NCBI RefSeq assembly: GCF_026151205.1
Contig: NC_087083.1
Location: forward strand, 8,987,460 to 9,051,459
Origin: Bolinopsis microptera
Taxonomy: Eukaryota; Ctenophora; Tentaculata; Lobata; Bolinopsidae
Reading direction: 5' to 3'
DNA length: 64,000 bases
Shown here in pieces: positions 3,859 through 62,530 of this stretch. A model generated the notes under the pieces. It saw nothing but the letters and a program-made list of their open reading frames with translations. It ran no database searches and was not told the origin of the DNA. The stretch's first letter is position 1, and the number at the start of each line of letters is the position of its first letter. A program made the translations under genes and the position numbers.

Positions 3859-3860
3859 TA

Positions 3861-6800
3861 TAATAAAACCCCAATTTGACGCAGAGGTTGGGCGAAAGGA
3901 AACGGTGTTAAATCGGTGTTTGTAGTAAATTGGGGCGGGGTAAATCGGTGTTTGCAGTAAATTGGGGCGGGGTAAATTGGTGTTTGCAGTAAATTGGGGC
4001 GGGGTAAATTGGTGTTTGCAGTAAATTGGGGCGGGGTAAATTGGTGTTTGCAGTAAATTGGGGCGGGGTAAATTGGTGTTTGCAGTAAATTGGGGCGGGG
4101 TAAATTGGTGTTAGCAGTAAATTGGGGCGGGGTAAATTGGTGTTTGCAGTAAATTGGGGCGGGGTAAATTGGTGTTTGCAGTAAATTGGGGCGGGGTAAA
4201 TTGGTGTTTGCAGTAAATTGGGGCGGGGTATATTGGTGTTTGCAGTAAATTGGGGCGGGGTAAATTGGTGTTTGCAGTAAATTGGGGCGGGGTAAATTGG
4301 TGTTTGCAGTAAATTGGGGCGGGGTAAATTGGTGTTTGCAGTAAATTGGGGCGGGGTAAATTGGTGTTTGCAGTAAATTGGGGCGGGGTATATTGGTGTT
4401 TGCAGTAAATTGGGGCGGGGTAAATTGGTGTTTGCAGTAAATTGGGGCGGGGTAAATTGGTGTTTGCAGTAAATTGGGGCGGGGTAAATTGGTGTTTGCA
4501 GTAAATTGGGGCGGGGTAAATTGGTGTTTGCAGTAAATTGGGGCGGGGTAAATTGGTGTTTGTAGTAAATTGGGGCGGGGTAAATCGGTGTTTGCAGTAA
4601 ATTGGGGCGGGGTAAATTGGTGTTTGCAGTAAATTGGGGCGGGGTAAATCGGTGTTTGCAGTAAATTGGGGCGGGGTAAATTGGTGTTTGTAGTAAATTG
4701 GGGCGGGGTAAATTGGTGTTTGTAGTAAATTGGGGCGGGGTAAATTGGTGTTTGCAGTAAATTGGGGCGGGGTAAATTGGTGTTTGTAGTAAATTGGGGC
4801 GGGGTAAATTGGTGTTTGCAGTAAATTGGGGCGGGGTAAATTGGTGTTTGCAGTAAATTGGGGCGGGGTAAATTGGTGTTTGTAGTAAATTGGGGCGGGG
4901 TAAATCGGTGTTTGCAGTAAATTGGGGCGGGGTAAATCGGTGTTTGTAGTAAATTGGGGCGGGGTAAATTGGTGTTTGTAGTAAATTGGGGCGGGGTAAA
5001 TCGGTGTTTGTAGTAAATTGGGGCGGGGTAAATCGGTGTTTGCAGTAAATTGGGGCGGGGTAAATTGGTGTTTGCAGTAAATTGGGGCGGGGTAAATTGG
5101 TGTTTGCAGTAAATTGGGGCGGGGTAAATTGGTGTTTGCAGTAAATTGGGGCGGGGTAAATTGGTGTTTGCAGTAAATTGGGGCGGGGTAAATTGGTGTT
5201 TGTAGTAAATTGGGGCGGGGTAAATCGGTGTTTGCAGTAAATTGGGGCGGGGTAAATTGGTGTTTGCAGTAAATTGGGGCGGGGTAAATCGGTGTTTGCA
5301 GTAAATTGGGGCGGGGTAAATTGGTGTTTGTAGTAAATTGGGGCGGGTTAAATTTGTGTTTGTAGTAAATTGGGGCGGGGTAAATTGGTGTTTGCAGTAA
5401 ATTGGGGCGGGGTAAATTGGTGTTTGTAGTAAATTGGGGCGGGGTAAATTGGTGTTTGCAGTAAATTGGGGCGGGGTAAATTGGTGTTTGTAGTAAATTG
5501 GGGCGGGGTAAATTGGTGTTTGCAGTAAATTGGGGCGGGGTAAATTGGTGTTTGCAGTAAATTGGGGCGGGGTAAATTGGTGTTTGTAGTAAATTGGGGC
5601 GGGGTAAATTGGTGTTTGTAGTAAATTGGGGCGGGGTAAATTGGTGTTTGCAGTAAATTGGGGCGGGGTAAATTGGTGTTTGTAGTAAATTGGGGCGGGG
5701 TAAATTGGTGTTTGCAGTAAATTGGGGCGGGGTAAATTGGTGTTTGCAGTAAATTGGGGCGGGGTAAATTGGTGTTTGTAGTAAATTGGGGCGGGGTAAA
5801 TTGGTGTTTGCAGTAAATTGGGGCGGGGTAGATTGGTGTTTGCAGTAAATTGGGGCGGGGTAAATTGGTGTTTGCAGTAAATTGGGGCGGGGTAAATTGG
5901 TGTTTGCAGTAAATTGGGGCGGGGTAAATTGGTGTTTGTAGTAAATTGGGGCGGGGTAAATTGGTGTTTGTAGTAAATTGGGGCGGGGTAAATTGGTGTT
6001 TGCAGTAAATTGGGGCGGGGTAAATTGGTGTTTGTAGTAAATTGGGGCGGGGTAAATTGGTGTTTGCAGTAAATTGGGGCGGGGTAAATTGGTGTTTGTA
6101 GTAAATTGGGGCGGGGTAAATTGGTGTTTGCAGTAAATTGGGGCGGGGTAAATTGGTGTTTGCAGTAAATTGGGGCGGGGTAAATCGGTGTTTGTAGTAA
6201 ATTGGGGCGGGGTAAATTGGTGTTTGCAGTAAATTGGGGCGGGATAAATCGGTGTTTGTAGTAAATTGGGGCGGGGTAAATTGGTGTTTGCAGTAAATTG
6301 GGGCGGGGTAAATCGGTGTTTGCAGTAAATTGGGGCGGGGTAAATTGGTGTTTGTAGTAAATTGGGGCGGGGTAAATTGGTGTTTGCAGTAAATTGGGGC
6401 GGGGTAAATTGGTGTTTGTAGTAAATTGGGGCGGGGTAAATTGGTGTTTGCAGTAAATTGGGGCGGGGTAAATTGGTGTTTGCAGTAAATTGGGGCGGGG
6501 TAAATTGGTGTTTGTAGTAAATTGGGGCGGGGTAAATTGGTGTTTGTAGTAAATTGGGGCGGGGTAAATTGGTGTTTGCAGTAAATTGGGGCGGGGTAAA
6601 TTGGTGTTTGTAGTAAATTGGGGCGGGGTAAATTGGTGTTTGCAGTAAATTGGGGCGGGGTAAATTGGTGTTTGCAGTAAATTGGGGCGGGGTAAATTGG
6701 TGTTTGTAGTAAATTGGGGCGGGGTAAATTGGTGTTTGCAGTAAATTGGGGCGGGGTAGATTGGTGTTTGCAGTAAATTGGGGCGGGGTAAATTGGTGTT

Positions 6801-9800
6801 TGCAGTAAATTGGGGCGGGGTAAATTGGTGTTTGCAGTAAATTGGGGCGGGGTAAATTGGTGTTTGTAGTAAATTGGGGCGGGGTAAATTGGTGTTTGTA
6901 GTAAATTGGGGCGGGGTAAATTGGTGTTTGCAGTAAATTGGGGCGGGGTAAATTGGTGTTTGTAGTAAATTGGGGCGGGGTAAATTGGTGTTTGCAGTAA
7001 ATTGGGGCGGGGTAAATTGGTGTTTGTAGTAAATTGGGGCGGGGTAAATTGGTGTTTGCAGTAAATTGGGGCGGGGTAAATTGGTGTTTGCAGTAAATTG
7101 GGGCGGGGTAAATCGGTGTTTGTAGTAAATTGGGGCGGGGTAAATTGGTGTTTGCAGTAAATTGGGGCGGGATAAATCGGTGTTTGTAGTAAATTGGGGC
7201 GGGGTAAATTGGTGTTTGCAGTAAATTGGGGCGGGGTAAATCGGTGTTTGCAGTAAATTGGGGCGGGGTAAATTGGTGTTTGTAGTAAATTGGGGCGGGG
7301 TAAATTGGTGTTTGCAGTAAATTGGGGCGGGGTAAATTGGTGTTTGTAGTAAATTGGGGCGGGGTAAATTGGTGTTTGCAGTAAATTGGGGCGGGGTAAA
7401 TTGGTGTTTGCAGTAAATTGGGGCGGGGTAAATCGGTGTTTGTAGTAAATTGGGGCGGGGTAAATTGGTGTTTGCAGTAAATTGGGGCGGGATAAATCGG
7501 TGTTTGTAGTAAATTGGGGCGGGGTAAATTGGTGTTTGCAGTAAATTGGGGCGGGGTAAATCGGTGTTTGCAGTAAATTGGGGCGGGGTAAATTGGTGTT
7601 TGCAGTAAATTGGGGCGGGGTAAATCGGTGTTTGCAGTAAATTGGGGCGGGGTAAATTGGTGTTTGCAGTAAATTGGGGCGGGGTAAATTGGTGTTTGCA
7701 GTAAATTGGGGCGGGGTAAATCGGTGTTTGTAGTAAATTGGGGCGGGGTAAATTGGTGTTTGCAGTAAATTGGGGCGGGGTAAATTGGTGTTTGCAGTAA
7801 ATTGGGGCGGGGTAAATTGGTGTTTGCAGTAAATTGGGGCGGGGTAAATCGGTGTTTGTAGTAAATTGGGGCGGGGTAAATTGGTGTTTGCAGTAAATTG
7901 GGGCGGGATAAATCGGTGTTTGTAGTAAATTGGGGCGGGGTAAATTGGTGTTTGCAGTAAATTGGGGCGGGGTAAATTGGTGTTTGCAGTAAATTGGGGC
8001 GGGGTAAATTGGTGTTTGTAGTAAATTGGGGCGGGGTAAATTGGTGTTTGCAGTAAATTGGGGCGGGGTAAATTGGTGTTTGTAGTAAATTGGGGCGGGG
8101 TAAATTGGTGTTTGCAGTAAATTGGGGCGGGGTAAATTGGTGTTTGTAGTAAATTGGGGCGGGGTAAATTGGTGTTTGCAGTAAATTGGGGCGGGGTAAA
8201 TTGGTGTTTGCAGTAAATTGGGGCGGGGTAAATCGGTGTTTGTAGTAAATTGGGGCGGGGTAAATTGGTGTTTGCAGTAAATTGGGGCGGGATAAATCGG
8301 TGTTTGTAGTAAATTGGGGCGGGGTAAATTGGTGTTTGTAGTAAATTGGGGCGGGGTAAATCGGTGTTTGCAGTAAATTGGGGCGGGGTAAATTGGTGTT
8401 TGTAGTAAATTGGGGCGGGGTAAATTGGTGTTTGCAGTAAATTGGGGCGGGGTAAATTGGTGTTTGTAGTAAATTGGGGCGGGGTAAATTGGTGTTTGCA
8501 GTAAATTGGGGCGGGGTAAATTGGTGTTTGCAGTAAATTGGGGCGGGGTAAATTGGTGTTTGTAGTAAATTGGGGCGGGGTAAATTGGTGTTTGCAGTAA
8601 ATTGGGGCGGGATAAATCGGTGTTTGTAGTAAATTGGGGCGGGGTAAATTGGTGTTTGCAGTAAATTGGGGCGGGGTTAATCGGTGTTTGCAGTAAATTG
8701 GGGCGGGGTAAATTGGTGTTTGCAGTAAATTGGGGCGGGGTAAATCGGTGTTTGCAGTAAATTGGGGCGGGGTAAATTGGTGTTTGCAGTAAATTGGGGC
8801 GGGGTAAATTGGTGTTTGCAGTAAATTGGGGCGGGGTAAATCGGTGTTTGTAGTAAATTGGGGCGGGGTAAATTGGTGTTTGCAGTAAATTGGGGCGGGA
8901 TAAATCGGTGTTTGTAGTAAATTGGGGCGGGGTAAATTGGTGTTTGCAGTAAATTGGGGCGGGGTAAATTGGTGTTTGCAGTAAATTGGGTTGGGGTAAA
9001 TCGGTGTTTGTAGTAAATTGGGGCGGGGTAAATTGGTGTTTGCAGTAAATTGGGGCGGGATAAATCGGTGTTTGTAGTAAATTGGGGCGGGGTAAATTGG
9101 TGTTTGCAGTAAATTGGGGCGGGGTAAATCGGTGTTTGCAGTAAATTGGGGCGGGGTAAATTGGTGTTTGTAGTAAATTGGGGCGGGGTAAATTGGTGTT
9201 TGCAGTAAATTGGGGCGGGGTAAATTGGTGTTTGCAGTAAATTGGGGCGGGGTAAATCGGTGTTTGTAGTAAATTGGGGCGGGGTAAATTGGTGTTTGCA
9301 GTAAATTGGGGCGGGATAAATCGGTGTTTGTAGTAAATTGGGGCGGGGTAAATTGGTGTTTGCAGTAAATTGGGGCGGGGTAAATCGGTGTTTGCAGTAA
9401 ATTGGGGCGGGGTAAATTGGTGTTTGCAGTAAATTGGGGCGGGGTAAATCGGTGTTTGCAGTAAATTGGGGCGGGGTAAATTGGTGTTTGCAGTAAATTG
9501 GGGCGGGGTAAATTGGTGTTTGCAGTAAATTGGGGCGGGGTAAATCGGTGTTTGTAGTAAATTGGGGCGGGGTAAATTGGTGTTTGCAGTAAATTGGGGC
9601 GGGGTAAATTGGTGTTTGCAGTAAATTGGGGCGGGGTAAATTGGTGTTTGCAGTAAATTGGGGCGGGGTAAATCGGTGTTTGTAGTAAATTGGGGCGGGG
9701 TAAATTGGTGTTTGCAGTAAATTGGGGCGGGATAAATCGGTGTTTGTAGTAAATTGGGGCGGGGTAAATTGGTGTTTGCAGTAAATTGGGGCGGGGTAAA

Positions 9801-11190
9801 TTGGTGTTTGCAGTAAATTGGGGCGGGGTAAATTGGTGTTTGTAGTAAATTGGGGCGGGGTAAATTGGTGTTTGCAGTAAATTGGGGCGGGGTAAATTGG
9901 TGTTTGTAGTAAATTGGGGCGGGGTAAATTGGTGTTTGCAGTAAATTGGGGCGGGGTAAATTGGTGTTTGTAGTAAATTGGGGCGGGGTAAATTGGTGTT
10001 TGCAGTAAATTGGGGCGGGGTAAATTGGTGTTTGCAGTAAATTGGGGCGGGGTAAATCGGTGTTTGTAGTAAATTGGGGCGGGGTAAATTGGTGTTTGCA
10101 GTAAATTGGGGCGGGATAAATCGGTGTTTGTAGTAAATTGGGGCGGGGTAAATTGGTGTTTGTAGTAAATTGGGGCGGGGTAAATCGGTGTTTGCAGTAA
10201 ATTGGGGCGGGGTAAATTGGTGTTTGTAGTAAATTGGGGCGGGGTAAATTGGTGTTTGCAGTAAATTGGGGCGGGGTAAATTGGTGTTTGTAGTAAATTG
10301 GGGCGGGGTAAATTGGTGTTTGCAGTAAATTGGGGCGGGGTAAATTGGTGTTTGCAGTAAATTGGGGCGGGGTAAATTGGTGTTTGTAGTAAATTGGGGC
10401 GGGGTAAATTGGTGTTTGCAGTAAATTGGGGCGGGATAAATCGGTGTTTGTAGTAAATTGGGGCGGGGTAAATTGGTGTTTGCAGTAAATTGGGGCGGGG
10501 TTAATCGGTGTTTGCAGTAAATTGGGGCGGGGTAAATTGGTGTTTGCAGTAAATTGGGGCGGGGTAAATCGGTGTTTGCAGTAAATTGGGGCGGGGTAAA
10601 TTGGTGTTTGCAGTAAATTGGGGCGGGGTAAATTGGTGTTTGCAGTAAATTGGGGCGGGGTAAATCGGTGTTTGTAGTAAATTGGGGCGGGGTAAATTGG
10701 TGTTTGCAGTAAATTGGGGCGGGATAAATCGGTGTTTGTAGTAAATTGGGGCGTGGTAAATTGGTGTTTGCAGTAAATTGGGGCGGGGTAAATTGGTGTT
10801 TGCAGTAAATTGGGTTGGGGTAAATCGGTGTTTGTAGTAAATTGGGGCGGGGTAAATTGGTGTTTGCAGTAAATTGGGGCGGGATAAATCGGTGTTTGTA
10901 GTAAATTGGGGCGGGGTAAATTGGTGTTTGCAGTAAATTGGGGCGGGGTAAATCGGTGTTTGCAGTAAATTGGGGCGGGGTAAATTGGTGTTTGCAGTAA
11001 ATTGGGGCGGGGTAAATCGGTGTTTGTAGTAAATTGGGGCGGGGTAAATTGGTGTTTGCAGTAAATTGGGGCGGGATAAATCGGTGTTTGTAGTAAATTG
11101 GGGCGGGGTAAATTGGTGTTTGCAGTAAATTGGGGCGGGGTAAATTGGTGTTTGCAGTAAATTGGGGCGGGGTAAATTGGTGTTTTACTG
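3861..11190. mobile_element. Tigger/pogo-like element blown up by satellite expansion
   Basis: The outermost bases of the satellite block look like the two ends of the Tigger-like elements found at 49679-50899 and 56641-56802. The left end (from 3861) carries AAAACCCCAATTTGACGC followed by a GCGAAAGGAAAC segment that matches the subterminal GGGGAAAGGAAA of the 49.7-kb element. The right end reads GGTAAATTGGTGTTTTACTG, one base different from the terminus at 50880-50899 apart from the usual C/T variant. TA precedes the left end (3859-3860), but the right flank is CA, so the target duplication is imperfect. I infer one element whose subterminal repeat expanded in place. Confidence 0.6.
3909..11184. 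repeat. 32-bp satellite, about 227 tandem units
   Basis: An uninterrupted array with a 32-bp unit that is itself a diverged dimer of 16-mers: GTAAATTGGTGTTTGC then AGTAAATTGGGGCGGG. Variants recur in ordered patterns: CAG/TAG, ATTGG/ATCGG, GGGG/GGGA. Rare private variants repeat at exact multiples of 32: GGTAGATT at 5831 and 6759 (928 bp apart), and GGGTTGGGG at 8991 and 10815 (1824 bp apart). Higher-order units have therefore been duplicated as blocks. No long frame is open in this array. Each unit carries a GC-box-like GGGGCGGGG and a forkhead-like TGTTTGC. Confidence 0.95.
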
Positions 11191-14100
11191 CATTACCCTT
11201 ATACTCTTATATTAACGGTTAAAGTTCACAGACGGGTACTATAATGTTAGGGCAATAACAGAGCTATAATGTTTAAGTTAGACCTCACAGAAACTTTATG
11301 AACGCAACCCCATTTAGCAAGACCTCGCTAATGCACTATTTTGTCTATTATTTGGGTATAAACACTACGCAATACTCTAATGGACCACCAAATATGGTAA
11401 AAATGAAATTTCAGAACTTTTATTTATCGTAAAGTAGTTTCTTAAACAACAAACACGATATAAGCTTAGGTTGAAAGCATGTGGAGATGAAACGATCATT
11501 AAATAGTTACGCAAGGTACTGAACTTTACTAAGTTTAACATTTTATGTCGCTCAAGGTAAACGCTAAATATATTAGTAATATAATAGTATATAATGACAA
11601 TATAATATAATAGTAATATAATTAGTAATATAATATATACTTGAGAGTGTGGCTGCTATTATATTGTTAGCGCTGAGTGGTGATCTACTCCAGCTCAGTA
11701 CAATTCCTTATAATTACTGATATTTTATGTCTATATTCAGGCTCTAGGCAGCCTGGCAGCTGCAATTGGAATCTGGCAGCTGGTTCTCTCAACATTTCTG
11801 TAGTTAGCTTTATCTACGTTGAAAGATTAAAGAGAGAAAATATTTCTAATCACCAAAATCTGGCCTCTTTTTAAATTAATAACTCTCTCAGTTTTATGCA
11901 ACTCCGGGTATACTCCAATGATCTATTTAATTGGAAAATTTTTTAATTTAATTTAATCGTATTTAAGTTAATTAATTAATACTACTCATATTCAAATTCC
12001 TAGAAGCTTCTCAAGGTAAATTCCTAGAAGCATGATTCCTCTTTTTAAATGGAAATTCCTAGAGGCTTGTTTCCTCCTTCCCAAAGTGCATTTCAGTCAT
12101 AAGTGGTCCCAGACCGTCCGATATAGAACAAACTAATAACAAAGTACTACATTCGGCAGATTATCAAGGCAATAATAGGTACAGGACTGCAGACTAAATT
12201 TTAATACGGAATAAGGAGCAACCTGTTCGCAATAAGAATAATAGAGGCACAGAATAGTTAGGAACCTGTGCAGTACAGGAATAGAACACCTCTCAATAAA
12301 GGTGTTTAGAATTTTGCCTTTTGATCAGTCATAAAAATGAAAAAATAGGAAATCAAAATTGTCTAGATCATAGATTATCTAGAAAGTCTAGATAACGGGA
12401 AAAAGATTATCTATTTATCTAGGCGAGTTGATAATAATGGAAACCCTAGTCGGCACAGGCGTAATGTGCCAGTACGAGATACACAACACCTCTCTGTATA
12501 CAGCTCTGTATACAGCTCTGCTTGTGCCTCCCTTGGAATGTACTAGTAGTATTAACACTCAGCAAGGTTTTTGTAATTAATTAACTGATATATAGCTTAT
12601 AATATATAATATATGTAATATATAATGTAAGTTGTAGTGAAGACCGTGGGTGAATCCGTTATGGATTCGTCCGGGTGTTTGAGTAACGTACTATGTACGG
12701 ACTTTATTATACTTGTTTTTAATGCTCCTTTATAATGGCTGCTCCTTCAAAGTTTATAAAGTCATCTACAAGAGATAAAAACAGGATTAAAGCTGAATAT
12801 TACGTTTAATCAAATAGATTCAGTTGGCATAACAATGTCACGAATATAAAGTATGTTATTCGCTAATAGCTTTATCATGTTTATTCCGTCACGTGATTAA
12901 AATGAGCTGCTATGGTTAAGTTATGTTGTGATTAAGTGGGAAAAAATAATAAAAAGAATGAACTCATTTCATTAGAGGTGACTTTTATTTTTATATAAAT
13001 CAAGGGATCGCCATATGACTATGAGCTGTTATATCTGTATTTAAAAAAACATGCTACCGTTAAAAATAAGAGTCACGTTTTATTAAATAGTTAAATTTGC
13101 CTCATATATCAAAGGATCGTCAAAATCTAGCAACGTACCTGGGTGATCCTTTTACTTCTTTGAACTTAATAAATCGACAAATACCGTAAAACCATAAAAG
13201 ACAGCTTTAACGTAAGAATTCTGCATTTATTTAACTACAGAGACCCACTAAATATAAGAGCACTAATACTTCATAACAATTAATTTAGCTTGTTCCATAT
13301 GAGCTTTTCTAGTGACTTAGTGACAGTACTGACAGCTGTAGAGACAGTTCAGCACGTACATTATTAACAAATCACTGAATTTGATGAAGTCGCAGCCACT
13401 TCAGGGGGTACAGTAAATCGATAAATTCGAAGTCAATATTATATTTCGACTATATGTATAATCCAGCGGACCCGAATTGTAAGCAGTTTTTATCAAGTTA
13501 ACATCCGCACAAAACAATTGGTATTTGGTAATTAAGAAATGAAGCTGATGGTCAGGATCGAGGTAGCACTAATCAGTCACAGGACAATGTGTTCATTAGA
13601 CATGCACCTTACAGCTTACCTTGTATCGCCAACAAATCAATCATCATATTAAAGTGCTGAAAATGAACGAATAGTCATGACAATGACATGAATCTCCAAT
13701 TGCAAAGCTGCATGTCACCGTGCATGAATTGATCGTGAAAATGAATGTAGAAGTCACATCAATTGTCAATGCGTCAACGATAAATAGCTCACAGTAGATC
13801 TGCAGCTGTTGTGTGAAACTTGAAGATTAATGAAGTGCATGGGAAGTTAAGATTGGATCTCAGATCCGTGTCTTTGTTTTTTGTGGACCCGCACAGCAGC
13901 TGGTGCTCCTAATTCACCGTGCACACCTGCGTTAGATGGAATAGTCATGATAGACTAAGAATAGATTTGGAGCTGTTTATGCCCTGGAAAAATTTTAAAT
14001 GCAGACGTTTGGCCTTGGGTCTCTTTTCAACCGTCAGAGGAGTTAATCTAGCAAACGACAGCTAACCCTTTCCTGATTTATCCAGCGGAAATATGCTGCT

Positions 14101-15914: not shown

Positions 15915-16095
15915 TCACTATCACGTGACGTCATCACACTATCACATGACGTCATCACACTATCACGTGACGTCATCACACTATCACATGACGTCATCAC
16001 ACTATCACGTGACGTCATCACACTATCACGTGACGTCATCACACTATCACATGACGTCATCACACTATCACGTGACGTCATCACACTATCACTAA
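15915..16095. promoter_or_regulatory. 21-bp array of fused E-box and CRE sites
   Basis: Eight full units plus a partial one. Each unit has a perfect palindromic CRE, TGACGTCA, fused to an E-box: ATCACGTGACGTCA in five units and ATCACATGACGTCA in three, partly alternating. The unit length of 21 bp is two helical turns, so all sites face the same side of the DNA. Long frames on both strands are by-products of the multiple-of-three period. Confidence 0.85.
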
Positions 16096-27110: not shown

Positions 27111-30100
27111 ATAAAGTACCTGTGTTTTGATGAGGAGGGGGAGTTGTGTTCGGAGGAGTTTGGAGTTAGATAGTGAGCCACTTCCGCGTTCTCGTTATCT
27201 GAGTCTGATTCCGGCGTGAGGGGCTGCGACTCCTGGGAAATTGTTTGTTATTCTCGTGAAATATTAAAATCACGCGATTATAATCACACAAATTATAATA
27301 GCATTAATTTTCACAAGTGAAATGTTTGTCTATTGTTGGTGTGGACTGGTGTGATATAACAGGGGCCGGGTGTGATATAGCAGGGGCCGGGTTTGATATA
27401 GCAAGGGACTGGTGTGATATAGCAGGGGCCGGGTGTGATATAGCAGGGGCCGGGTGTGATATAGCATGGGACTGGTGTGATATAGCAGGGGACTGGTGTG
27501 ATATAACAGGGGCCGGGTGTGATATAGCAGGGGCCGGGTGTGATATAGCAGGGGACTGGTGTGATATAGCAGAGGCCGGGTGTGATATAGCAGGGGACTG
27601 GTGTGATATAGCAGAGGCCGGGTGTGATATAGCAGGGGCCGGGTGTGATATAGCATGGGACTGGTGTGATATAGCAGGGGACTGGTGTGATATAACAGGG
27701 GCCGGGTGTGATATAGCAGGGGACTGGTGTGATATAGCATGGGACTGGTGTGATATAGCGTGGGACTGGTGTGATATAGCAGGGGACTGGTGTGATATAG
27801 CAGGGGACTGGTGTGATATAGCAGGGGCCGGGTGTGATATAGCAGGGGCCGGGTGTGATATAACAGGGGCCGGGTGTGATATAACAGGGGCCGGGTGTGA
27901 TATAGCATGGGACTGGTGTGATATAACAGGGGCCGGGTGTGATATAGCATGGGACTGGTGTGATATAGCATGGGACTGGTGTGATATAGCAGGGGACTGG
28001 TGTGATATAACAGGGGCCGGGTGTGATATAGCAGGGGACTGGTGTGATATAGCAGGGGCCGGGTGTGATATAGCAGGGGCCGGGTGTGATATAGCAGGGG
28101 ACTGGTGTGATATAGCAGGGGACTGGTGTGATATAGCAGGGGCCGGGTGTGATATAGCATGGGACTGGTGTGATATAGCAGGGGACTGGTGTGATATAGC
28201 AGGGGACTGGTGCACACTGCAAGTTTGTTTTAACACATGAGAGCCATCAACCAATCACTAATCAACTTGCAGAACCAGCCAATAATATTGCAGAATCACG
28301 TGTCAGAATAGACCTGTATCACACACACGACGATCAGCGTTGATCAACTTTATGATTAATCAACAATTTCATCAAATTATGGACATTATAAATCAACATG
28401 TTCTGTTTCCAGCAAATGAAAGTATTGGTCTCCAGTGACAATCTATACGTTAAAATAACACCACTTCGATATGCATACTTATAGTGCGTTAAAAATTGAA
28501 TTATATTAATTTCAAAACATTTATTAATCAAGATCATAAACATCCCGAAGTCACGTGATACAAAACAACCAATCAGAGGGCTGCATTCTGGTCACGTGAT
28601 ACAAAACAACCAATCAGGGGGCTGCATTCTAACCTGAAGTTCGTACACATCATGTAAGAGGGGTATTGCGTTAAAATGGGTCTGAATGTGATGTCGATCC
28701 TTTTTGTCAACATCTTCGAAATCTTTCAACTGCTGAGCTGGCTGGTCCTTTAGTACCTAAGGTGGTTATTTTACAATTAATAAAACTAGAAGTAAGAAAT
28801 GGTTACGAAAGTAATGGGAATTCACATAAATAATGGCGATGAGGTGATCCATATTTTCGCTGAAATAATTCTACATTTAAATCCGAACTCTAATACGGAA
28901 CTCTGCGTGTAAGACTTTTAAAACGAACCTGCGCATAAGGCTGCATCCAGTGACGACAAGATATGAGATCATCCCAACTGTAACCAGTAACCTCCTTCAG
29001 TTTGCTGGGGACCACTAACCATAGTGCACTAGCCGCGATCATACTCGGCCTGCAACCATCAAATTGTTAGCTTTAAGCTTATTGTAAGTTGTAACATTGG
29101 ATATTGGGAAAAATGTGAAAATTGTAACAGCTCAGCGAGATATTAGCGAGATATTAGGGGTGGGATATTGCAGGGATTTAGACGCCCACTTTTTAGGATT
29201 TCTCGGGTAAATGCAAATGTCAATGATACCCACAGGGTTGAGAAAACACAAATTTGTCGAATTTGACTGATTATGAATAACTAGTAAGGATAAAGGAAGT
29301 AATTAAGTAATAAGTACAATTAATCACCTATACTCGACGCTCTTAACATCAAGGGAACACAGGTCAATGAGTTGGATTATCTTCACAAAGTCGGACTGTG
29401 AGTATTCTGCTCTCAGAAACTGGAACGTAGTGCAACTGATACCTGAAGTAAAAATTGTATAGCCAATGAGAGGGAAGTATTCTAGTCACGTGACACAAAC
29501 TAGCCAATGATAAGGGAAGTATTCTAGTCACGTGACACAAACTAGCCAATGATAAGGGAAGTGTTCTAGTCACGTGACACAAACTAGCCAATGATAAGGG
29601 AAGTATTCTAGTCACGTGACACAAACTAGCCAATGATAAGGGAAGTATTCTAGTTACGTGACTGATAAAATAGCAACTGTTATCATGCCACGTGACATGC
29701 CACGTTTCAGTTCATTCACCAGATTAACGAACAGTAAATGAGTAAACAATCGCTTGATGTAATCGACCACCTCAAAGCAAGTTTGGGAATATATGTACTT
29801 ATTTAGTGATAAGATGATTCAGCTAACTGGGTCGGGTAAACATTTGACCGGATGAGGTGGCGACAACTTGTTGATTGATTGGGAGTCATGAATATTTTGG
29901 GTGTTACTGTGCGATCCGCCCTAAATGATTGATGGTGCATTGGTGCAGCAGCAGCATGTCAACGGTTCCTACACCACTACAGCTGATAACTACAATAGTG
30001 TATAAAAAGATAGGTATCTCACATAGGTACATCCAATCATCCACGAGTAAGAAAGAAAAGAAATGTGTAACTGTAACGATTAGTTTTGACTGGAAAGTTT

Positions 30101-39100: not shown

Positions 39101-42100
39101 ATACATGCAGAAAATTTGCATGATATTTACAAGATGCAGTGTTTTCAGCTGCTTATGGAGATCACACTTGAATGACTGAAGTTTGTTTGTTATAATTAAT
39201 TTATTCGATTAACACAGTTTCAGTAACCAACACAATTGAAGTTAAAAAACTAAACCAACCAATCAGACCAGAGTATCGGCACCACGTGACACAAACAACC
39301 AATCAGACCAGAGTATCAGCACCACGTGACACAAACTAACCAATCAGACCACAGTATCAGCACCACGTGACACAAACTAACCAATAAGACCACAATATCA
39401 GCACCACGTGACACAAACAACCAATCAGAGCACAGTATCAGCATCACACGTGACACAAATTAACCAATCAAAGCACAGTATTTAACTTACAGCACTGGTT
39501 GTGGGGGCTTGTTTGGGTTGGAGGGGTTTGAAGTGTGACTGTAGAGATGTTTGGCGTGACGATGCAGCCCCAGCTACACACTTCTTCTTCGTTCCCTCCT
39601 GAGAAGTGCGAATCGTTATTCTACGTTTATTAAACCTGAGTTTAAACTACTGACACAGTTTTAAAACTAGCTACTCAACTATTTCATAACACGCCCATAA
39701 GTGACTAAGGTGTGAGCTGATTTTTAAAAAGGTGATGAATATTTAGGATTGGGTGATGACCGAATACTTGGACTAAAACACGAACCGGTTTAAAAAGTGA
39801 TACTACCAACCAGTATGTCTCTACCAACAGTCTCTAATAAACTCACAGTCTCTTATAAACTCACAGTCTCTAATAAACTCACAGTCTCTAATAAACTCAC
39901 AGCCTCTAATAAACTCACAGTCTCCAATAAACTCAGAGTCTCTAATAAACTCACAGTCTCTAATAAACTCACAGCCTCTAATAAACTGACAGTCTCCAAT
40001 AAACTCACAGTCTCTTATAAACTCACAGCCTCTAATAAACTGACAGTCTCCAATAAACTCACAGTCTCTTATAAACTCACAGTCTCTAATAAACTCACTG
40101 TCTCTAATAAACTCACAGTCTCTAATAAACTCACAGTCTCTAATAAACTCACAGTCTCTAATAAACTCACAGTCTCTTATAAACTCACAGTCTCTAATAA
40201 ACTCACTGTCTCTAATAAACTCACAGTCTCTAATAAACTCACAGTCTCTTATAAACTCACAGTCTCTAATAAACTCACAGTCTCTAATAAACTCACAGTC
40301 TCTAATAAACTCACAGTCTCTAATAAACTCACAGTCTCCAATAAACTCACAGTCTCTAATAAACTCACAGTCTCTTATAAACTCACAGTCTCTAATAAAC
40401 TCACAGTCTCTAATAAACTCACAGTCTCCAATAAACTCACAGTCTCCAATTAACTCACAGTCTCTAATAAACTCACAGTCTCTAATAAACTCACAGTCTC
40501 TAATAAACTCACAGTCTCTAATAAACTCACAGTCTCTAATAAACTCACAGTCTCTAATAAACTCACAGTCTCTAATAAACTCACTGTCTCTAATAAACTC
40601 ACAGTCTCTAATAAACTCACTGTCTCTAATAAACTCACAGTCTCTTATAAACTCACAGTCTCTAATAAACTCACAGTCTCTAATAAACTCACTGTCTCTA
40701 ATAAACTCACAGTCTCTAATAAACTCACTGTCTCTAATAAACTCACAGTCTCTAATAAACTCACTGTCTCTAATAAACTCACAGTCTCTTATAAACTCAC
40801 AGTCTCTAATAAACTCACAGTCTCTAATAAACTCACTGTCTCTAATAAACACACAGTCTCTAATAAACTCACAGTCTCTAATAAACTCACTGTCTCTAAT
40901 AAACACACAGTCTCTAATAAACTCACAGTCTCTAATAAACTCACCGTCTCTAATAAACTCACAGTCTCTAATAAACTCACAGTCTCTAATAAACTCACAG
41001 TCTCTAATAAACTATCAGTCTCTAATAAACTCACAATCTCCAATAAACTCACAGTCTCCAATTAACTCACAGTCTCTAATAAACTCACAGTCTCTAATAA
41101 ACTCACAGTCTCTAATAAACTCACAGTCTCTAATAAACTCACAGTCTCTAATAAACTCACAGTCTCTAATAAACTCACAGTCTCTAATAAACTCACTGTC
41201 TCTAATAAACTCACAGTCTCTAATAAACTCACTGTCTCTAATAAACTCACAGTCTCTAATAAACTCACAGTCTCTAATAAACTCACAGTCTCTAATAAAC
41301 TCACTGTCTCTAATAAACTCACAGTCTCTAATAAACTCACTGTCTCTAATAAACTCACAGTCTCTAATAAACTCACCGTCTCTAATAAACTCACAGTCTC
41401 TTATAAACTCACTGTCTCTAATAAACTCACAGTCTCTAATAAACTCACTGTCTCTAATAAACACACAGTCTCTAATAAACTCACGGTCTCTAATAAACTC
41501 ACTGTCTCTAATAAACACACAGTCTCTAATAAACTCACAGTCTCTAATAAACTCACCGTCTCTAATAAACTCACAGTCTCTAATAAACTCACCGTCTCTA
41601 ATAAACTCACAGTCTCTAATAAACTCACAGTCTCTAATAAACTCACAGTCTCTAATAAACTATCAGTCTCTAATAAACTCACAATCTCCAGGGCGGGCAT
41701 GTTTTTTAGACTCTGGAGACAAGCTCCACTGCAGAAGTGCCTCATTCAGGCTGGATAAAGGACAAAAGTACCACCAGCGTGCTATTTGTAAAGAGTAAAG
41801 CAAATGCACAAACAAATATCAAGAGGATAACAGCCACGATCAGAACTTGTTAAGAAGCAGTGAGATTATATAGCCTCAATAAAGATTTTTAGTGGGCAGA
41901 GAGGGAACAGAGAAACCAAGAATTAAGACTGGTGAAGAAAAGTGGGGAAGAAACAATAGTCCTTGCTAAACGCAATGATTTCTGAAATCTGAATACTTCT
42001 TACACACTGATACTGCACTGTGTACATTGCTCAACACATAAGAAATAGACTCCCTCTATACTTAACAAACTTGTCAAAGAAACGAAGAAAAAACCCATAC

Positions 42101-48790: not shown

Positions 48791-51700
48791 ATGAGCTGCG
48801 CTTGCGGATTGAGTGACAAGGTTGAAGATCATGGAAGTGAAACATTTTGCATAGCATGTGGATCTATTGTCAAACAGGTAAGAGCACAAAATGCATTATT
48901 TTGGATTCAGATTTCCGGAAAGAAATAGGTACACTTGCTTAAGTGTTGCAACCAAATGAATTTGTGGCTCAAATCTATCATGCTAACAAAAAACCTTTTT
49001 CAGGACTTTCTTGTTGAGGATAAGCCCAACTTTTGGGACAAATTTCAGCATCAGCGCCATGATTTCACCAAAGATCCTGCTAACAAATTTGTTACACATG
49101 GCATATTTGGCTCCTCTAAAGAAACTTACAATATCAGGTAATTTTTACTTTACCATCTTTCTGTCCAGGGATCATTGACATGTGCATGTGCAGTGAGTTA
49201 AAAACTTTAAACTTTAAAAGTAGTTTAAAATTAGTGAAAATTTTATCTACACACCAACTCACTAAGTAACATGATCCAAAATGGTCTCTTAGAGCGTGGA
49301 AATCACATGACACTACAATGGTAAACAACATTTTGAGAGCGTGAGAAGAGAGAACTCTCTCTATGTCAATGACCCTTCCAGGAGAGCAACCTTTCCTTTT
49401 TTGAAGTAAGTTTCAATTCTAACACATTGACAGTATGAGCATACATTTCTGAACAAGATTACCCTACTATATTATATTTTATGCTGTGCCAAATTATCTC
49501 CCCCATGTACATCAAATTGTAAACATAGTGTGTACCGTATATAATTGATTTGGTAGGCAAACAATCTCATAGACTAAGTGACTGCAAAGTTAATTTGCAA
49601 GATATTGAACACCCTATTAGCTATTCATATGACACTAGATCAATTGCGACTATGCCATTCATAATAATGTATCATGTACAGTAAAACCCAGATTCACTGC
49701 GCCCAAATTTACCGCAAACCCTGATTTACCGTGAGTATTTCCTTTCCCCAAAATTTTTCTTCAAATATTTTTTTCGAAAATCTAGATTTTTTCAGAAAAG
49801 TTGAATTTTTTGCCTGGTCGACGTTGTCTGTAGAAGGACGTTTCAACGATTTCCGTTCAGACAAGCAGGGGAACCAAAGGTGATCTCATATCTTTCGAGT
49901 TCTGCTCATTTCTTTTTGATGTTTCGAACAGTTGTCTCACGATTCCAAAGTGTAGGGTAACTAAAGAGGAGGATTTGCCGCTCTTCAACATTTTGATCAC
50001 TTCTAATTCTCTCTTCTGTCCGATGGTTAGACGTTTTCGATTAGAGGAAGGAGATTCTCCGGTATTAGGTATAGCAGTGGCGTAACTTTGCCTGTTGGCG
50101 CCCCCCCGCTCAGTGACAAAAAGCGCCCCCTAAATTTTTTGTGTCCCTAAAAAAAAAAAAAAAAAAAGGTCGGGTACTTTTTTTCTCGCCCCCCTACAGC
50201 TTTTTGCGCCCCCCCCCCCCCCCTGAAGCAAAAAAGGTACCCTAAATATTTTCTCGCGTCGACCAAACGCTAAATTGGACAGGGAAATACACAAACAAGG
50301 CGTTTTTTCAGTGAAAGGGCTTAAAATTCAGGAAAATTGCGCCCCCCTTATACGGCGCCCCCCCCCCCCCCCCCCCCGCACAGCGGGGTCTGTGGGGCCC
50401 TAAGTTACGCCACTGAGGTATAGTGGAATTAGATTAGAGCAAGACACAAGCTCGTGCTCCACACTGCTTATTGAATCATGTAACCATAAAACCATGTTCT
50501 CGTATAATGCCTTTGCTACTGTGATGCTTGACAGTACTCCTATTACAGGGCATGGGCACCACTGTGTTTGAGAAGGGTCAGTTCGTGCTACAGGGGAATA
50601 TGTGATCTGATCATACAGATGTTGATAGCTAGTGATAATTACAGATTTCGATACGATTTGCAATGTACTGCAAAGAAAGCAAGAATTTGCTCAAACTGAA
50701 TTTCTATCATGTTGATACTATTAAGTTGCTGAGTACAATCAGACTATCAGAAATATCCACTCTATGGATTAAAGGCCTCTCCCACCCTTTCTTGGCCAAT
50801 TTTGGACCCCAAAAACCAAAACCCTGATTTACCGCAAACCCCGATTTACCACAGGTTTTAGCCTTCCCCAAAAACCCGCGGTAAATCGGGGTTTTACTGT
50901 ATAATGTATAAGTTTTTCGTGATATTAATGACACTTCCTTTTAAGTCAAGATTTATTTAGAAGATTTATGTAAAATCTTTTCCACCTTAAATTCACTATT
51001 TTATTGGTTACTATTTTCAGACAGAAGACTTTAAAGAAAAGAAACTTAATGATATCGTGTCACCAATTAAAGCTACCACACCCTGAACTGATAGCCGAGA
51101 CTGCCCTGAGCATGTTGGAGAAACACATTTTCAAACCTCGAAAACATATGCTACAAAAGCATCGTGCTGCTGCTATCTACACTAGTTGTAAATTACACAA
51201 CATTGAGATTACTTCTAGCGTGAGTTTTTTAAATATTGTTAATCTCGTCTTATTATCAATTATCAAATGGATGGTATTAGGCGAATAGATTAATGATTAT
51301 AAAAATCCCATCAATGTAAGCGCCCAAGTACTACACGATACCACAATCAATTGATCTCTAGAAATGCATAACTATTATATTATTTTCAGGAGATAATAGA
51401 CAGTTTGCAAGTTACTGGAAAACATCTTTCAACATTCTTTTTAAAGTTTTACAGGATGTGTACCAGTAATCACGACCAATTAAATACCGAGCTCAGCCAA
51501 TCCCAGCCAATCCACCTGGCTGACATTAAAGATCTAGAGATGAACGGTGTAATACCACCAGATTCATCTAGAACATTCCTAAAATACTGCTCGGATCTAA
51601 GTGAACTGTTCCCGGTGCCACCTGAACCCAGAAGACACACCAGCTATGGGAAACATAGTGGGTATTTTCTGAGAGATTCCCGACATCGGCTGGTGGTGTT

Positions 51701-57500: not shown

Positions 57501-60500
57501 GTTAGATCATTGCTTGATACTGATTTGTCGGTTGATATCACGTGACAAATAAAGTCAGATCTGGAATTCTATTATGTACTGTGATATCTCTTTAAGTTGT
57601 CTTTATTAGATGCAAGTTGAAAGTCTTTACTGTCTAATTATTGTACAGTGATTTATCCTCGCGCTGTATTACCATGCTAATTACCACGTTAATTACCATG
57701 CTAATTACGAAATGAACCGTAATATGTTTTGGTGAAATTCCAAGAACTGTGTCGTGCTTCTTTGCCGGAATCTTCACTGTCATCACGCCATTTGCGGACC
57801 ACCTCCTTGACTGTGCTATCCAGTTATTTTATCACAGAAACCTGAATGTAGCTATCTATCGGCACATTTCTGTCACTTCATCTGTCAAAATATGTCTGAA
57901 ATCTGTCTAAATCAGCCGTCACTACTATCGGTTTTTATTGCAGATTTCATGACACGACAAAATACGAAACTCATCCTTAAAAGCTATTCTACTGGTTTCA
58001 CCCTGTTTTGCTCTCACATTTAAACTGTCAGGCATTAGTAGAATTGCCAATATTATTTAGTCCAATTAGCTCTTTATCACTAACTTCACCACATTTGGTG
58101 TTTATCTTAATTGTACACTAATTATATCTACTCTCATTGTTCATAACAACTCCCTGATTGATCACCATTGACTGTGTATCATGTCACGTGACCCTTCTTT
58201 TACACGTCACCAAATAAAGGTGGTTTGTTTTTTTAAAGTTCCCGTTTCCCGTAAGTTCCCGTTTCCCGTAAGTTCCCGTTTCAAGTAAGTTCCCGTTTCA
58301 GGCAGTATAAAGTGGAAAGGTCGACATCGTGGAATACTATACGTTATTATGTTAAGGTAAGTTTTTATAATTTTGTAATTTATTTGTTAGTAATGATGCC
58401 TGATCAATTATTTAAAAAGATAAGGAAGTTAGAGTACTGTTAATTGATTAGGATGCTTGAGTTACATCCAGTAAATTTAAACAACTAATTTGGAGTGACC
58501 CCAAATCCCGTTATTAAAACACCTCCCGGTAACTAAACACCTCACGGTAAATAATATAGTGGCCCTTGGCTGCAAAGGATCAACAAATACCCACTAAAGC
58601 GGAGGATTACTCAAGAATCACTGTGTCCGTAAATAGAACACATTTCAGGGAGAATTTACAGAACAGTATACAAGCCAGAAGATATTACACCTAGAGTTCG
58701 AAATAGAGCGAGATTACAAACAAGATCTACAGATTAAATGCATCAACAATCAGCGGAGAAGTAAGTCAAGTGTAGAGTGTACCGACTAGACTACTGAGCT
58801 ATCCCTGAATTTAGGTTGAACACTGATTAGAACTGCGACATATTTGCCACAATAATTTGCACCCTTTAACGGAACGCGCGGAGCATTTTACACAGTGGCA
58901 AGGACCCAGTATCTCGTAGTGAAAACTGGCAATAGCTGCGCGGCGGTCTAGTTTGTGCCGCGCGGATACGACAATGTCATGGATTGGTTGTAGTCAAGGA
59001 TCTGACGACATTCCCGTCTATATAACTTCCGCCCCGGGGTTTGAGACTTGGGATACCTCAAGGGACCCATTAGAAACAAATTTGGCTTGGGTAGAAATTT
59101 TGGCTATGGTGCAGTTTTGCGCAATTGACCACGCCCTTTTTTGGCGCTTTTGCAACTTTAGAATCAAAATAACTCCGCTTCTAATTAGAATTAGAAGCTC
59201 AGCTTGGCTTTAAAGTTGTTCAGAATCATCACATTAAGGGGGGTAGAGCATAATTTTAAAGTCAACAGACATCGGGTTGTTGAGTTATGTGACCACACCC
59301 TTATTTACCCTCGCGAGTCGTGATTTTCACACTAAATACGAGATATCTCGGCTTCTGATTGAGCTACGTGCTCATCCTGGGCATTAAAATGTTCAGAATC
59401 ATCACATTGAGTAGGGTAGAGCACAATTTCAAAGTCCTCAGATGTCAGGTTGTTGAGTTATTAGGCCCCAACCTGTTTTTACGCTTTCGCGGGTAGCGAT
59501 TGCAGCGCTTAAAATCAAAATAACTCAGCTTCCAATTGAAGTTAGGAGCAAAACTCGGGCAGCAAAATGTTCACAATCATCATATTGAGTGGGGTAGAAC
59601 GTAGTTTCAAAGTCCTCAGACGTCAGATTGTTGAGTTATTAGGCCCCGCCCAAATGTTTACGCTCTCGCGAGTCCCGATTCGACGCTTAAAATCAAAATA
59701 ACTCTGCTTCTGATTAGAGTTAGGAACTAAACTTGGGCATAAAAATGTTCAGAATCATCACATTGAGTGGGGTAAAACGTAGTTTCAAAGTCCTCAGACG
59801 TCAGGTTGTTGAGTTATTAGGCCCACACCATAGTATTTACGCTCTCGCGAGTCGGGAGTGGACACTTAAAATCAAAATAACTCGGCTTCTGATTAGAGTT
59901 AGGAACAAAACTTGGGCATGGAAATGTTCAGAATTATCACATTGAGTGGGGTAGAACGTGGTTTCAAAGTCTTCAGACGTCAGGTTGTTGAGTTATTAGG
60001 CCCACACCATAGTATTTACGCTCTCGCGAGTCGCGAGTGGACACTTAAAATCAAAATAACTCGGCTTCTGATTAGAGTTAGGAACAAAACTTGGGCATGG
60101 AAATGTTCAGAATTATCACATTGAGTGGGGTAGAACGTGGTTTCAAAGTCTTCAGACGTCAGGTTGTTGAGTTATTAGGCCCCAACCTGTTTTTACGCTC
60201 TCGCGGGTAGCGATTGCAGCGCTTAAAATCAAAATAACTCAGCTTCCAATTGAAGTTAGGAGCAAAACTCGGGCAGCAAAATGTTCACAATCATCACATT
60301 GAGTGGGGTAGAACGTAATTTCAAAGTCTTCAGACGTCAGGTTGTTGAGTTATTAGGTCCCATCTTATTTGTATGCTCAGGCGAGTCGTGAGTCGACGCT
60401 TAAAATTAAAATAAATCTGCCTCTGATTGGAGTTAGCAAGTCAACTTGAACATACAAATTTTTAGGATTATTGAATTGAGTGGAGTAGAGCGTGGGTTCA

Positions 60501-62530
60501 AAGTCATAAGGGATCAGGCAGTTCAGGCTGTTGAGTCACTAATACTTCTGTTTATGATCTCATGTATCGAGTTCTAATACGTCTATTTATGATCTCATGT
60601 ATTGAGTTCTATTTTTCTATTTATGTTTGACGAACTTACGTCGACCTTATACGATAAATAATGTGATTATTCTTTCTTGTTCCTGGCCAAGATGAATTGC
60701 TCACAACTGCAATGGTAAAAGTAGTTTGAAAATTAAATTAATAACCAGAAAAAGTAAGTTTCGCCCAGAGCAAACAGTGAATACTCTCTAAATCCCGTAC
60801 AACCACACTCTTTCTCACTCAATGTGATAATTCTGACCATTTTTATGTCCACGTTTAGTTCCTAACTCCAATCAGAAGCCTAGTTATTTTGATTTTAAGT
60901 GTCGACTCGCGACTCGCGAAAGCGTAAAAACAGGGTTCCGCCTAATAACTCAACAACCTGACGTCTGAAGACTTTGAAACCACGTTCTACCCCACTTAAC
61001 ATGATAATTCTGAACATTTCCATGCCCAATTTTTGTTCCTAACTCTAATCAGAAGCCGAGTTATTTTGATTTTAAATGTCCACTCGCGAGAGCGTAAAAA
61101 TAGGGTTCCGCCTAATAACTCAACAACCTGACGCCTGAGAACTTTGAAACCACGTTCTACCCCACTCAATGTGATAATTTTGAACATTTCCATGCCCAAG
61201 TTTTGTTCCTAACTCTAATCAGAAGCCGAGTTATTTTGATTTCAAGTGTCCACTCGCGACTCGCGAGAGCGTAAATACTATGGTGTGGGCCTAATAACTC
61301 AACAACCTGACGTCTGAGGACTTTAAAACTACGTTCTACCCCACTCAATGTGATGATTCTGAACATTTTTATGCACAAGTTTAGTTCCTAACTCTAATCA
61401 GAAGCAGAGTTATTTTGATTTTAAGCGTCGAATCGGGACTCGCGGGAGCGTAAACATTTGGGCGGGGCCTAATAACTCAACAATCTGACGTCTGAGGACT
61501 TTGAAACTACGTTCTACCCCACTCAATATGATGATTGTGAACATTTTGCTGCCCGAGTTTTGCTCCTAACTTCAATTGGAAGCTGAGTTATTTTGATTTT
61601 AAGCGCTGCAATCGCTACCCGCGAGAGCGTAAAAACAGGTTGGGGCCTAATAACTCAACAACCTGACATCTGAGGACTTTGAAATTGTGCTCTACCCTAC
61701 TCAATGTGATGATTCTGAACATTTTAATGCCCAGGATGAGCACGTAGCCCAATCAGAAGCCGAGATATCTCGTATTTAGTGTGAAAATCACGACTCGCGA
61801 GGGTAAATAAGGGTGTGGTCACATAACTCAACAACCCGATGTCTGTTGACTTTAAAATTATGCTTTACCCCCCTTAATGTGATGATTCTGAACAACTTTA
61901 AAGCCAAGCTGAGCTTCTAATTCCAATTAGAAGCGGAGTTATTTTGATTCTAAAGTTGCAAAAGCGCCAAAAAAGGGCGTGGTCAATTGCGCAAAACTGC
62001 ACCATAGCCAAAATTTCTACCCAAGCCAAATTTGTTTCTAATGGGTCCCTTGAGGTATTCCAAGTCTCAAACCCCGGGGCGGAAGTTATATAGACGGGAA
62101 TGTCGTCAGATCCATGACTATTGGTTTCTAATTTAATTAGATGCAGTAATTAAATCCAAAATTATGATCCGTGCAAATTGAACCGGAGATTTGTACACTG
62201 GTCTAAAATTAAGTTCTGCAATTGTCATGTCATTACTTCTTTTTTATGGAAATCTAGGCACGTGCTAGCGTTCGAGTTATTATTGAGTTAAATCATAAAC
62301 ACAGGCACGCTTTAGGGTGTTGTAATTCCCTATGTTGTAACTCGACTTATAATTACCGTACAATTTTAAAACCTCTAAAAAACTCTTGCGTTACAGAAGA
62401 ACAGTTGATGTACCAGTACCGGGTAACAGGCAACACAAGATACCGGGATTACGCCTCCGAAATGGATCTAGCCTCTTGTAAGGACTATAACGACTTTAAG
62501 TTGCCTCAATATATAAACAGTCGTCCCTAA
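54529..62530 (+). CDS. DNAJB12: DNAJB12/DNAJB14-type J-protein (9 exons, 375 aa)
   Basis: Membrane-anchored HSP40 co-chaperone that stimulates HSP70 at the ER surface in membrane-protein quality control. Exons: 54529-54655, 55014-55188, 55614-55759, 56001-56141, 56339-56469, 57300-57406, 58302-58356, 58649-58760, 62397-62530. All introns are GT-AG with consistent phases. The N terminus reads [14 protein letters not shown] as in the family. A Pro/Ser/Thr linker precedes the J-domain (about 107-170: [24 protein letters not shown] with HPD at 135-137, [19 protein letters not shown]). Then come [14 protein letters not shown], one membrane segment (about 245-263, [16 protein letters not shown]) and the conserved C-terminal domain ending [12 protein letters not shown]. 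The length equals that of human DNAJB12 as I recall it. The first two splice donors (GTTGGA, GTTTGT) are weak. Confidence 0.95.
55760..55795 (+). repeat. 12-bp repeat triplicating the exon 3 donor of the DNAJB12-like gene
   Basis: GTAGGTCACACT, GTAGGTCACACT and GTAGGTCACCTG follow one another immediately after exon 3 (end 55759). Each begins with a donor-like GTAGGT. As the period is 12 nt, use of the second or third donor would add 4 or 8 residues (CRSH repeats) without shifting frame. Confidence 0.8.
56641..56802. mobile_element. 162-bp Tigger-like MITE in DNAJB12-like intron 5
   Basis: It starts CAGTAAAACTC and ends GGGGTTTTAGTTTTACTG, flanked by TA at 56639-56640 and 56803-56804. It contains CCGCGCCCAATTTACCGC and AACCCCGAT subrepeats in both orientations, as in the 49.7-kb element. 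No coding content. Confidence 0.85.
58238..58301 (+). repeat. 17-bp repeat ending at the exon 7 acceptor of the DNAJB12-like gene
   Basis: Units of GTAAGTTCCCGTTTCCC place GTAAGT at 58251, 58268 and 58285, and the last unit ends TTCCCGTTTCAG as the acceptor (58301). The pyrimidine tract of the intron is therefore made of the repeat. Confidence 0.8.
58991..62120. mobile_element. 3.1-kb near-palindromic element in DNAJB12-like intron 8
   Basis: Left arm 58991 to about 60480, right arm about 60815 to 62120, spacer about 330 bp. The outer ends TAGTCAAGGATCTGACGACA and the inverse of TGTCGTCAGATCCATGACTA pair with one mismatch and continue for hundreds of bases. Each arm is built of subrepeats of about 179 bp, marked by ATTGAGTGGGGTAGAACGT (59584, 59762, 59941, 60120, 60298), GTCAGGTTGTTGAGTTATTA and CTCGCGAGTCGCGA. 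The flanks show TTGGTTG on the left and TTGGTTT on the right, a possible target duplication. Short frames with [10 protein letters not shown]-type sequence are repeat by-products. Fold-back type; no transposase. Confidence 0.85.

Follow-up and report, generated by a model that had tools for sequence, protein, structure and literature searches.

A 7.3-kb tandem array of a 32-bp unit lies near the start of the 64,000-nucleotide stretch of the Bolinopsis microptera genome analysed here (C12:8987460-9051459, hereafter the window). Very probably the array is a young satellite (in terms of size, a large minisatellite) that formed in situ within the right end of a Tigger/pogo-type miniature inverted-repeat transposable element (MITE) of about 105 bp. 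The original prediction for this region had placed a 32-bp satellite in a transposon end, and had regarded array and transposon as one object whose subterminal repeat had grown more than 200-fold. Both claims were borne out: the array contains 227 units between MITE ends at 3861-3906 and 11171-11190, and the array element, when its 227 pairs of half-units are reduced to one, can be aligned from one end to the other with ordinary copies of the MITE.

Array structure and the MITE family end

The array and its edges comprise the following features.

3859-3860, no strand: left TA, the expected target-site duplication (from the sequence)
3861-3906, + strand: MITE left terminus TAATAAAACCCC (family form CAGTAAAACCCC) and subterminal segment GAGGTTGGGCGAAAGGAAAC, from alignment to MITE copy L013
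3907-11170, + strand: array of 227 units (as counted in the assembly), each of 32 bp and made of A (17 bp) + B (15 bp), head-to-tail and indel-free
5411-6498, + strand: units 48-81, present letter for letter again as units 77-110 (6339-7426), the trace of a 29-unit block duplication
7331-9154, + strand: units 108-164, repeated as units 165-221 (9155-10978), a 57-unit block duplication
11171-11190, + strand: C unit, the right terminus GGTAAATTGGTGTTTTACTG, into which the array runs in register

When the window sequence was split into units in frame, the consensus 32-mer, GGTAAATTGGTGTTTGCAGTAAATTGGGGCGG, was found exactly in 120 of the 227 units, and the mean divergence of all units from it was 2.2%. 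Tandem Repeats Finder called the array at 3909-11185, with 96-97% matches and 0% indels. At the left edge, the TA is followed by TAATAAAACCCCAATTTGACGCAGAGGTTGGGCGAAAGGAAAC, and the pieces ahead of the array are TAATAAAACCCCAATTTGACGC and then GAGGTTGGGCGAAAGGAAAC. At the right edge, the counterpart of this TA is a CA at 11191-11192, one transition from TA. The whole array element can be written (AB)227-C, with both MITE ends flanking.

The family to which these ends belong was examined across the assembly (264.65 Mb, 232 contigs). A search with the left end of a longer family member, at position 49679 of the window, gave at least 47 matches; 40 of 234 candidates were scored, and 30 loci (L009-L038) were taken. 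As the query itself reads A-B-C, the loci it selected are biased toward that order. Read toward the terminus, the family end consists of A, GGTAAATCGGGGTTTGC (17 bp), B, GGTAAATCGGGGCGC (15 bp), and C, GGTAAATCGGGGTTTTACTG, usually followed by TA (30 loci). The three repeats have the core GGTAAATCGGGG in common, and A and C agree in their first 15 bases. The window 32-mer is A+B, in the same register as in the family end. The pair of 16-mers that the original prediction expected in the family consensus is thereby present: within this query-selected set, the exact order A-B-C, or (AB)1C, was found in 33 of 35 run rows and 31 of 33 distinct runs, the other two reading A-A before the inner repeat (L033) and A-B-B-B-C (L034). 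The two bases after A-B-C runs were TA in 30 of 33 rows and CA in the remaining three (one locus counted twice).

Genome-wide, with one mismatch allowed, B precedes C at 109 places, at least eight of which read GGCC ahead of the core and are not B, and A directly precedes C at 75 places. A-B-C is not the sole form of the family end, and ends with A alone are frequent as well. The terminal 22-mer GGTAAATCGGGGTTTTACTGTA occurs at 1877 places with up to three mismatches, and its reversed control at none. One perfect B-C family terminus lies at C12:8983595-8983620, about 7.7 kb upstream of the array and just outside the window.

The expanded unit itself is confined to one place. All 210 genome matches to the 32-mer at up to two mismatches fall inside the window array, and no second array was found in the 264.65 Mb at that threshold. 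Instead of arrays at several places, as in a satellite, there is a single one; the window array is therefore an incipient, single-locus satellite or large minisatellite.

We compared the array element with individual family copies, expressing each alignment as a z-score against shuffles that preserve base composition only. Reduced to one AB pair, the element is about 105 bp long, and its alignments with ordinary MITE copies run from end to end; one such copy is L013 (C2:5.764 Mb), which has TA on both sides. Against six short MITE copies the collapsed element gave z-scores of 25 to 36 (best, 36), and the short copies close to it include L013 on C2, L012 on C13, and L025 and L037 on C12 (26-36). 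With the 49679 element, the z-scores for its two ends were only 12-17, which makes that element a cousin and not the source. Judged by these similarities, the closest source found for the array appears to be the short MITE form of about 105 bp, with the 49679 element a longer cousin. The original prediction had seen source, termini and product together in one window; termini and product are indeed there, but the 49679 element, being clearly less similar to the array element than the short MITE copies elsewhere (C2, C13 and C12), was rejected as the direct source. What had been read at the 49679 end is correct, in that its left end carries the same two blocks followed by the terminus on the opposite strand (A-B-C on the minus strand).

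The left flank, which contains no repeat unit, bears on the same relationship. These 44 bp alone scored 9 to 17 against six ordinary MITE copies and exceeded 2000 of 2000 base shuffles against each of eight targets; the left terminus segment 3861-3906, which aligns to L013, scored 15.6, with none of 2000 shuffles as good. Together with GGTAAATTGGTGTTTTACTG on the right, this agrees with the predicted bounding of the array by an element terminus on one side and by the other end and its subterminal segment on the other. We rejected the bare 10-mer terminus CAGTAAAACC as evidence, as it matched 68 times in the window at two mismatches, with 82 matches expected by chance. The case rests instead on the longer flank and the genome-wide family.

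Copy-number variation and growth of the array

A set of 28 expansion loci (L089-L116) was picked by matches to the array flank or to an expanded-repeat query, a choice from which the family-wide share of expansions is not derivable; these are all the loci fetched among the matches listed, and further matches exist. Every one of the 28 contains a run of at least four units, and at 25 the run ends in C. Two pairs of these loci are single insertions. L111 and L112 have the expanded end in common, with an identical run and also 37 shared bases beyond the terminus, and are thus a duplicated locus and not two insertions. L105 (C4:3.854 Mb) and L115 (C4:3.595 Mb) are likewise one insertion, with flanks identical letter for letter over the stretch compared; they differ by exactly 64 bp (two AB pairs) and by one substitution in the terminus. 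Counted per insertion, with each pair taken once, there are 26 insertions, 23 of them ending in C.

The copy numbers form a series. Beyond the ordinary (AB)1C, we found (AB)2C at L099, L104, L115 and L116 and (AB)4C at L105 and L114. Other expansions are of A type, for example A9-C at L094 and A10-C at L102, and at L089 (C6:16.263 Mb) about 47 A-type units, broken by two irregular joints, stand between what is left of the two transposon ends. L093 has 18 units, mostly B. The original prediction had pointed to intermediate copies and to the flanks of other arrays as informative: intermediates exist at the six (AB)2C and (AB)4C loci, with none found between 4 and 227 pairs. No other 32-mer array was found, and lower-copy relatives end in the family terminus at 25 of 28 loci.

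Of 233 unit spacings across 31 runs, 171 measured 17 bp and 57 measured 15 bp (228 together), as counted at 28 loci (L034 and L089-L116 without the duplicate L112, both L105 and L115 being kept). Such spacings are the step sizes expected from mispairing of A with B, of B with C and, for 32 bp, of A with C. In addition, the mean distance between AB units is 2.0 of 32 bases for units of one locus and 6.5 for units of different loci, where six sampled window units entered the within-locus comparison, the first six units per locus entered the between-locus comparison, and the pair L105-L115 was omitted from the latter. Without the 15 sampled pairs of the window, the within-locus mean is 2.9. This greater likeness inside loci suggests that the repeats at most loci grew locally.

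These observations suggest how the array may have originated. The seed would be the three adjacent imperfect repeats A, B and C at the family end. Through the 15 bases at which A and C begin alike, mispairing between them during replication or recombination could add or remove one A+B pair (32 bp), while A/B mispairing would change the length by 17 bp and B/C mispairing by 15 bp. The sister copies found have one, two or four AB pairs, and this copy would have run away to 227.

The interior of the array records later steps. Along the series of unit variants, exact repetition extends over 49 units at a lag of 57 and over 34 units at a lag of 29, compared with a longest run of 15 in 200 shuffles of unit order. 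Units 108-164 and 165-221 differ by one substitution in 1824 bp, so that the last block duplication is recent; an assembly duplication is the less likely reading. Growth may have proceeded by slow single-pair steps, followed, once the array was long, by block duplications of 29 and 57 units. The simplest view, we infer, is that the array is without function, although binding of a pogo-type protein to it is possible.

Several points weigh against this account. The CA at the right target site and two substitutions in the left end imply an old or damaged element, and no empty site served to prove that the array element was inserted just once. Among the loci examined, no copy has between 4 and 227 AB pairs, which leaves the runaway phase unsampled. 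Places other than the terminus can also act as seed, since the runs at L096, L100 and L113 occupy the inner repeat in the left half of the element. At L116 the two units differ from each other by 4.0 bases, the same as their distance to the units of L104, and the argument for a local origin there is weak. Finally, L105 and L115 could be a segmental duplication or two assembly haplotypes; the pair shows the change and not its direction.

An alternative that we consider doubtful is that copy number grew mostly during transposition, for example through gap-repair slippage after excision, with the expanded ends being mobile and perhaps favoured through their larger number of transposase-binding sites. 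Expansions at many separate loci would accord with this, as would the several transposase-binding sites contained in Galileo tandem repeats, according to the portion of that source considered here (PMC3688188); favouring of expanded ends by additional binding sites has been suggested for both Galileo and Tetris. However, the change between L105 and L115 took place at a single site, the mean distance between units is smaller inside a locus than from one locus to another, and L111/L112 proved to be a duplicated locus.

It is very unlikely that the assembler inflated a short array to the present length. Assembly errors are common in tandem arrays, and the near-perfect 57-unit repeat resembles an assembly duplication, but there are no indels over 7.3 kb, the unit variants fall into structured blocks, and non-repeat flanks are present on both sides. 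Capture or invasion of a pre-existing satellite by a MITE, with the transposon ends secondary, as proposed for Xenopus miDNA4 in the passages available from PMC12628747, is scarcely credible and is largely refuted by A-B-C in ordinary copies: the 32-mer was not found elsewhere in the 264.65 Mb, its A and B halves are the ordinary family end, the array keeps register with C, and low-copy versions at other loci carry their own substitutions.

Transposon class and other features of the window

The longer family member and its parts are as follows.

49679-50899, no strand: longer family member (L009), TA on both sides, A-B-C at its left end (minus strand), from the sequence and the family search
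49860-50066, - strand: coding remnant related to a CENP-B_N type DNA-binding domain, from two genomic relatives with a Pfam match
50075-50415, no strand: unrelated nested insertion, not part of the satellite, with ends CAGTGGCG and 8-bp direct repeats AGGTATAG

The ends of the 49679 element are 88% complementary over 25 nt. Its coding remnant had no Pfam match, nor did two exon-like pieces beside the element, but two genomic relatives of the remnant (58 and 64 residues) matched CENP-B_N above the curated cut-off (E 8.7e-9 and 6.6e-7), and one of these relatives adjoins a CAGTAAAACCCCGAT end. The nested insertion is presumably hAT-like; an end similar to its own, CAGTGGCGTAAC, is present in L075.

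The family shows features of a MITE, namely a TA target-site duplication and inverted terminal repeats starting with CAGT, and these, together with CENP-B_N in relatives, support its placement with Tigger/pogo-type elements of the Tc1/mariner group. The Tigger label of the original prediction is upheld to this extent; it is not backed by a transposase with family ends, as none was found among 20 of 123 DDE_1 matches that were fetched with 1.5-kb flanks (0 of 20 had a convincing end). These 20 loci gave only weak partial matches to the family end, and some have stretches in common that show borders of their own. A phylogenetic study describes Tigger as polyphyletic and advises against naming by similarity alone, as stated in the part used here (PMC7325037), which makes pogo-type the safer label.

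Two further pogo-related observations were made along the way. L119 (C5:20362838, 20.363 Mb) contains a 257-aa open reading frame (ORF) with 50% identity over 56 residues to the family CENP-B_N piece, and no family ends were found around it in 2.4 kb; it may be a host gene of pogo origin. L081 and L083 contain 501-aa DDE_1 ORFs within a common stretch of more than 2.6 kb on two chromosomes, L082 being a third 501-aa match, and they represent another pogo-like family, one that may have moved recently.

Elsewhere in the window, a 3.1-kb palindrome at 58991-62120 has arms of 1011 bp with 98% identity (58991-60001 and 61110-62120) and more inverted pairs toward its centre. The palindrome consists largely of 178-bp tandem repeats that face both ways, and it has the look of a foldback-type element. 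An unbroken 815-aa ORF on the minus strand at 32923-35370 matches the reverse transcriptase domain RVT_1 (E 2.2e-33) and probably belongs to an element of the type without long terminal repeats (non-LTR). Two more long minisatellites lie at 27343-28212 (21 bp x 41) and 39827-41688 (18 bp x 103). The motif CACGTGAC/GTCACGTG occurs 59 times in the window, with 0.9 occurrences expected from base composition, partly within several different minisatellites and partly outside them (e.g., 15916-16092, 28550-28630, 29460-29662 and 39252-39481).

Relation to known systems

The beginnings of satellites are usually inferred after their source has decayed. Here the seed, the low-copy steps and the runaway array are present in one assembly, which also holds an exact two-unit difference at one site and expansions that run in parallel in the 32-, 17- and 15-bp registers, and the source family is still recognisable at many hundreds of sites. 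With these stages in one species, step rate, step size and runaway length become measurable. Among the titles and abstracts listed in searches of the open-licence literature, none reported a pogo/Tigger MITE-end satellite with such a series or a ctenophore satellite of like origin, which is weak evidence of absence. Terminal repeats are named among satellite sources in the sections of two reviews on which we draw (PMC12628747, PMC9659126). The comparisons that follow likewise rest on parts of the cited sources.

The CENP-B box, which connects Tigger ends with alpha satellite, resembles the present case in linking Tigger-type ends, a CENP-B_N type protein and a satellite (PMC7325037); it differs in that any centromeric role or protein binding of the window array would be putative. 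We regard as quite improbable the further idea that A, B and C serve the pogo-type CENP-B_N domain as binding sites, that the family has scattered many hundreds of self-expanding binding-site seeds across the genome, and that the array would re-enact, at a first locus, the passage from a Tigger end to a CENP-B-box-like satellite with bound protein.

The Xenopus element miDNA4, likewise a MITE within the broader Tc1/mariner group, also contains a tandem array whose length varies (PMC12628747, PMC9659126), but the tandem repeat there is proposed to be foreign and captured, whereas here it is the element's own end. Galileo of Drosophila shares terminal repeats with internal tandem repeats (PMC3688188). 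Unlike our family, it belongs to the P-element superfamily and has very long ends, and transposase binding has been shown for its repeats, while for those of the window it would be putative.

The closest parallel is Tetris of Drosophila virilis, in which the number of tandem repeats in the terminal repeats varies, two allelic copies differ by one repeat, and repeats amplified inside the element, up to 66 copies, become TIR-220 satellite arrays (PMC4079207). In both systems, changes of repeat number within the ends of a non-autonomous DNA transposon lead to a satellite array, and the window array shows the features of that kind of origin: a unit within the ordinary terminal repeat, an array between both ends, and intermediate copy numbers. 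In contrast to the 220-bp repeats and foldback-like ends of Tetris, the seed here is a set of three 15-20 bp repeats, and the MITE that carries it measures about 105 bp; three step sizes are possible, the target sites are TA, relatives contain CENP-B_N, and one locus holds 227 pairs. The array is of the same kind as Drosophila Tetris/TIR-220, in an unusually complete form, and it carries this mode of origin beyond Drosophila, to a pogo-type MITE that is very short.

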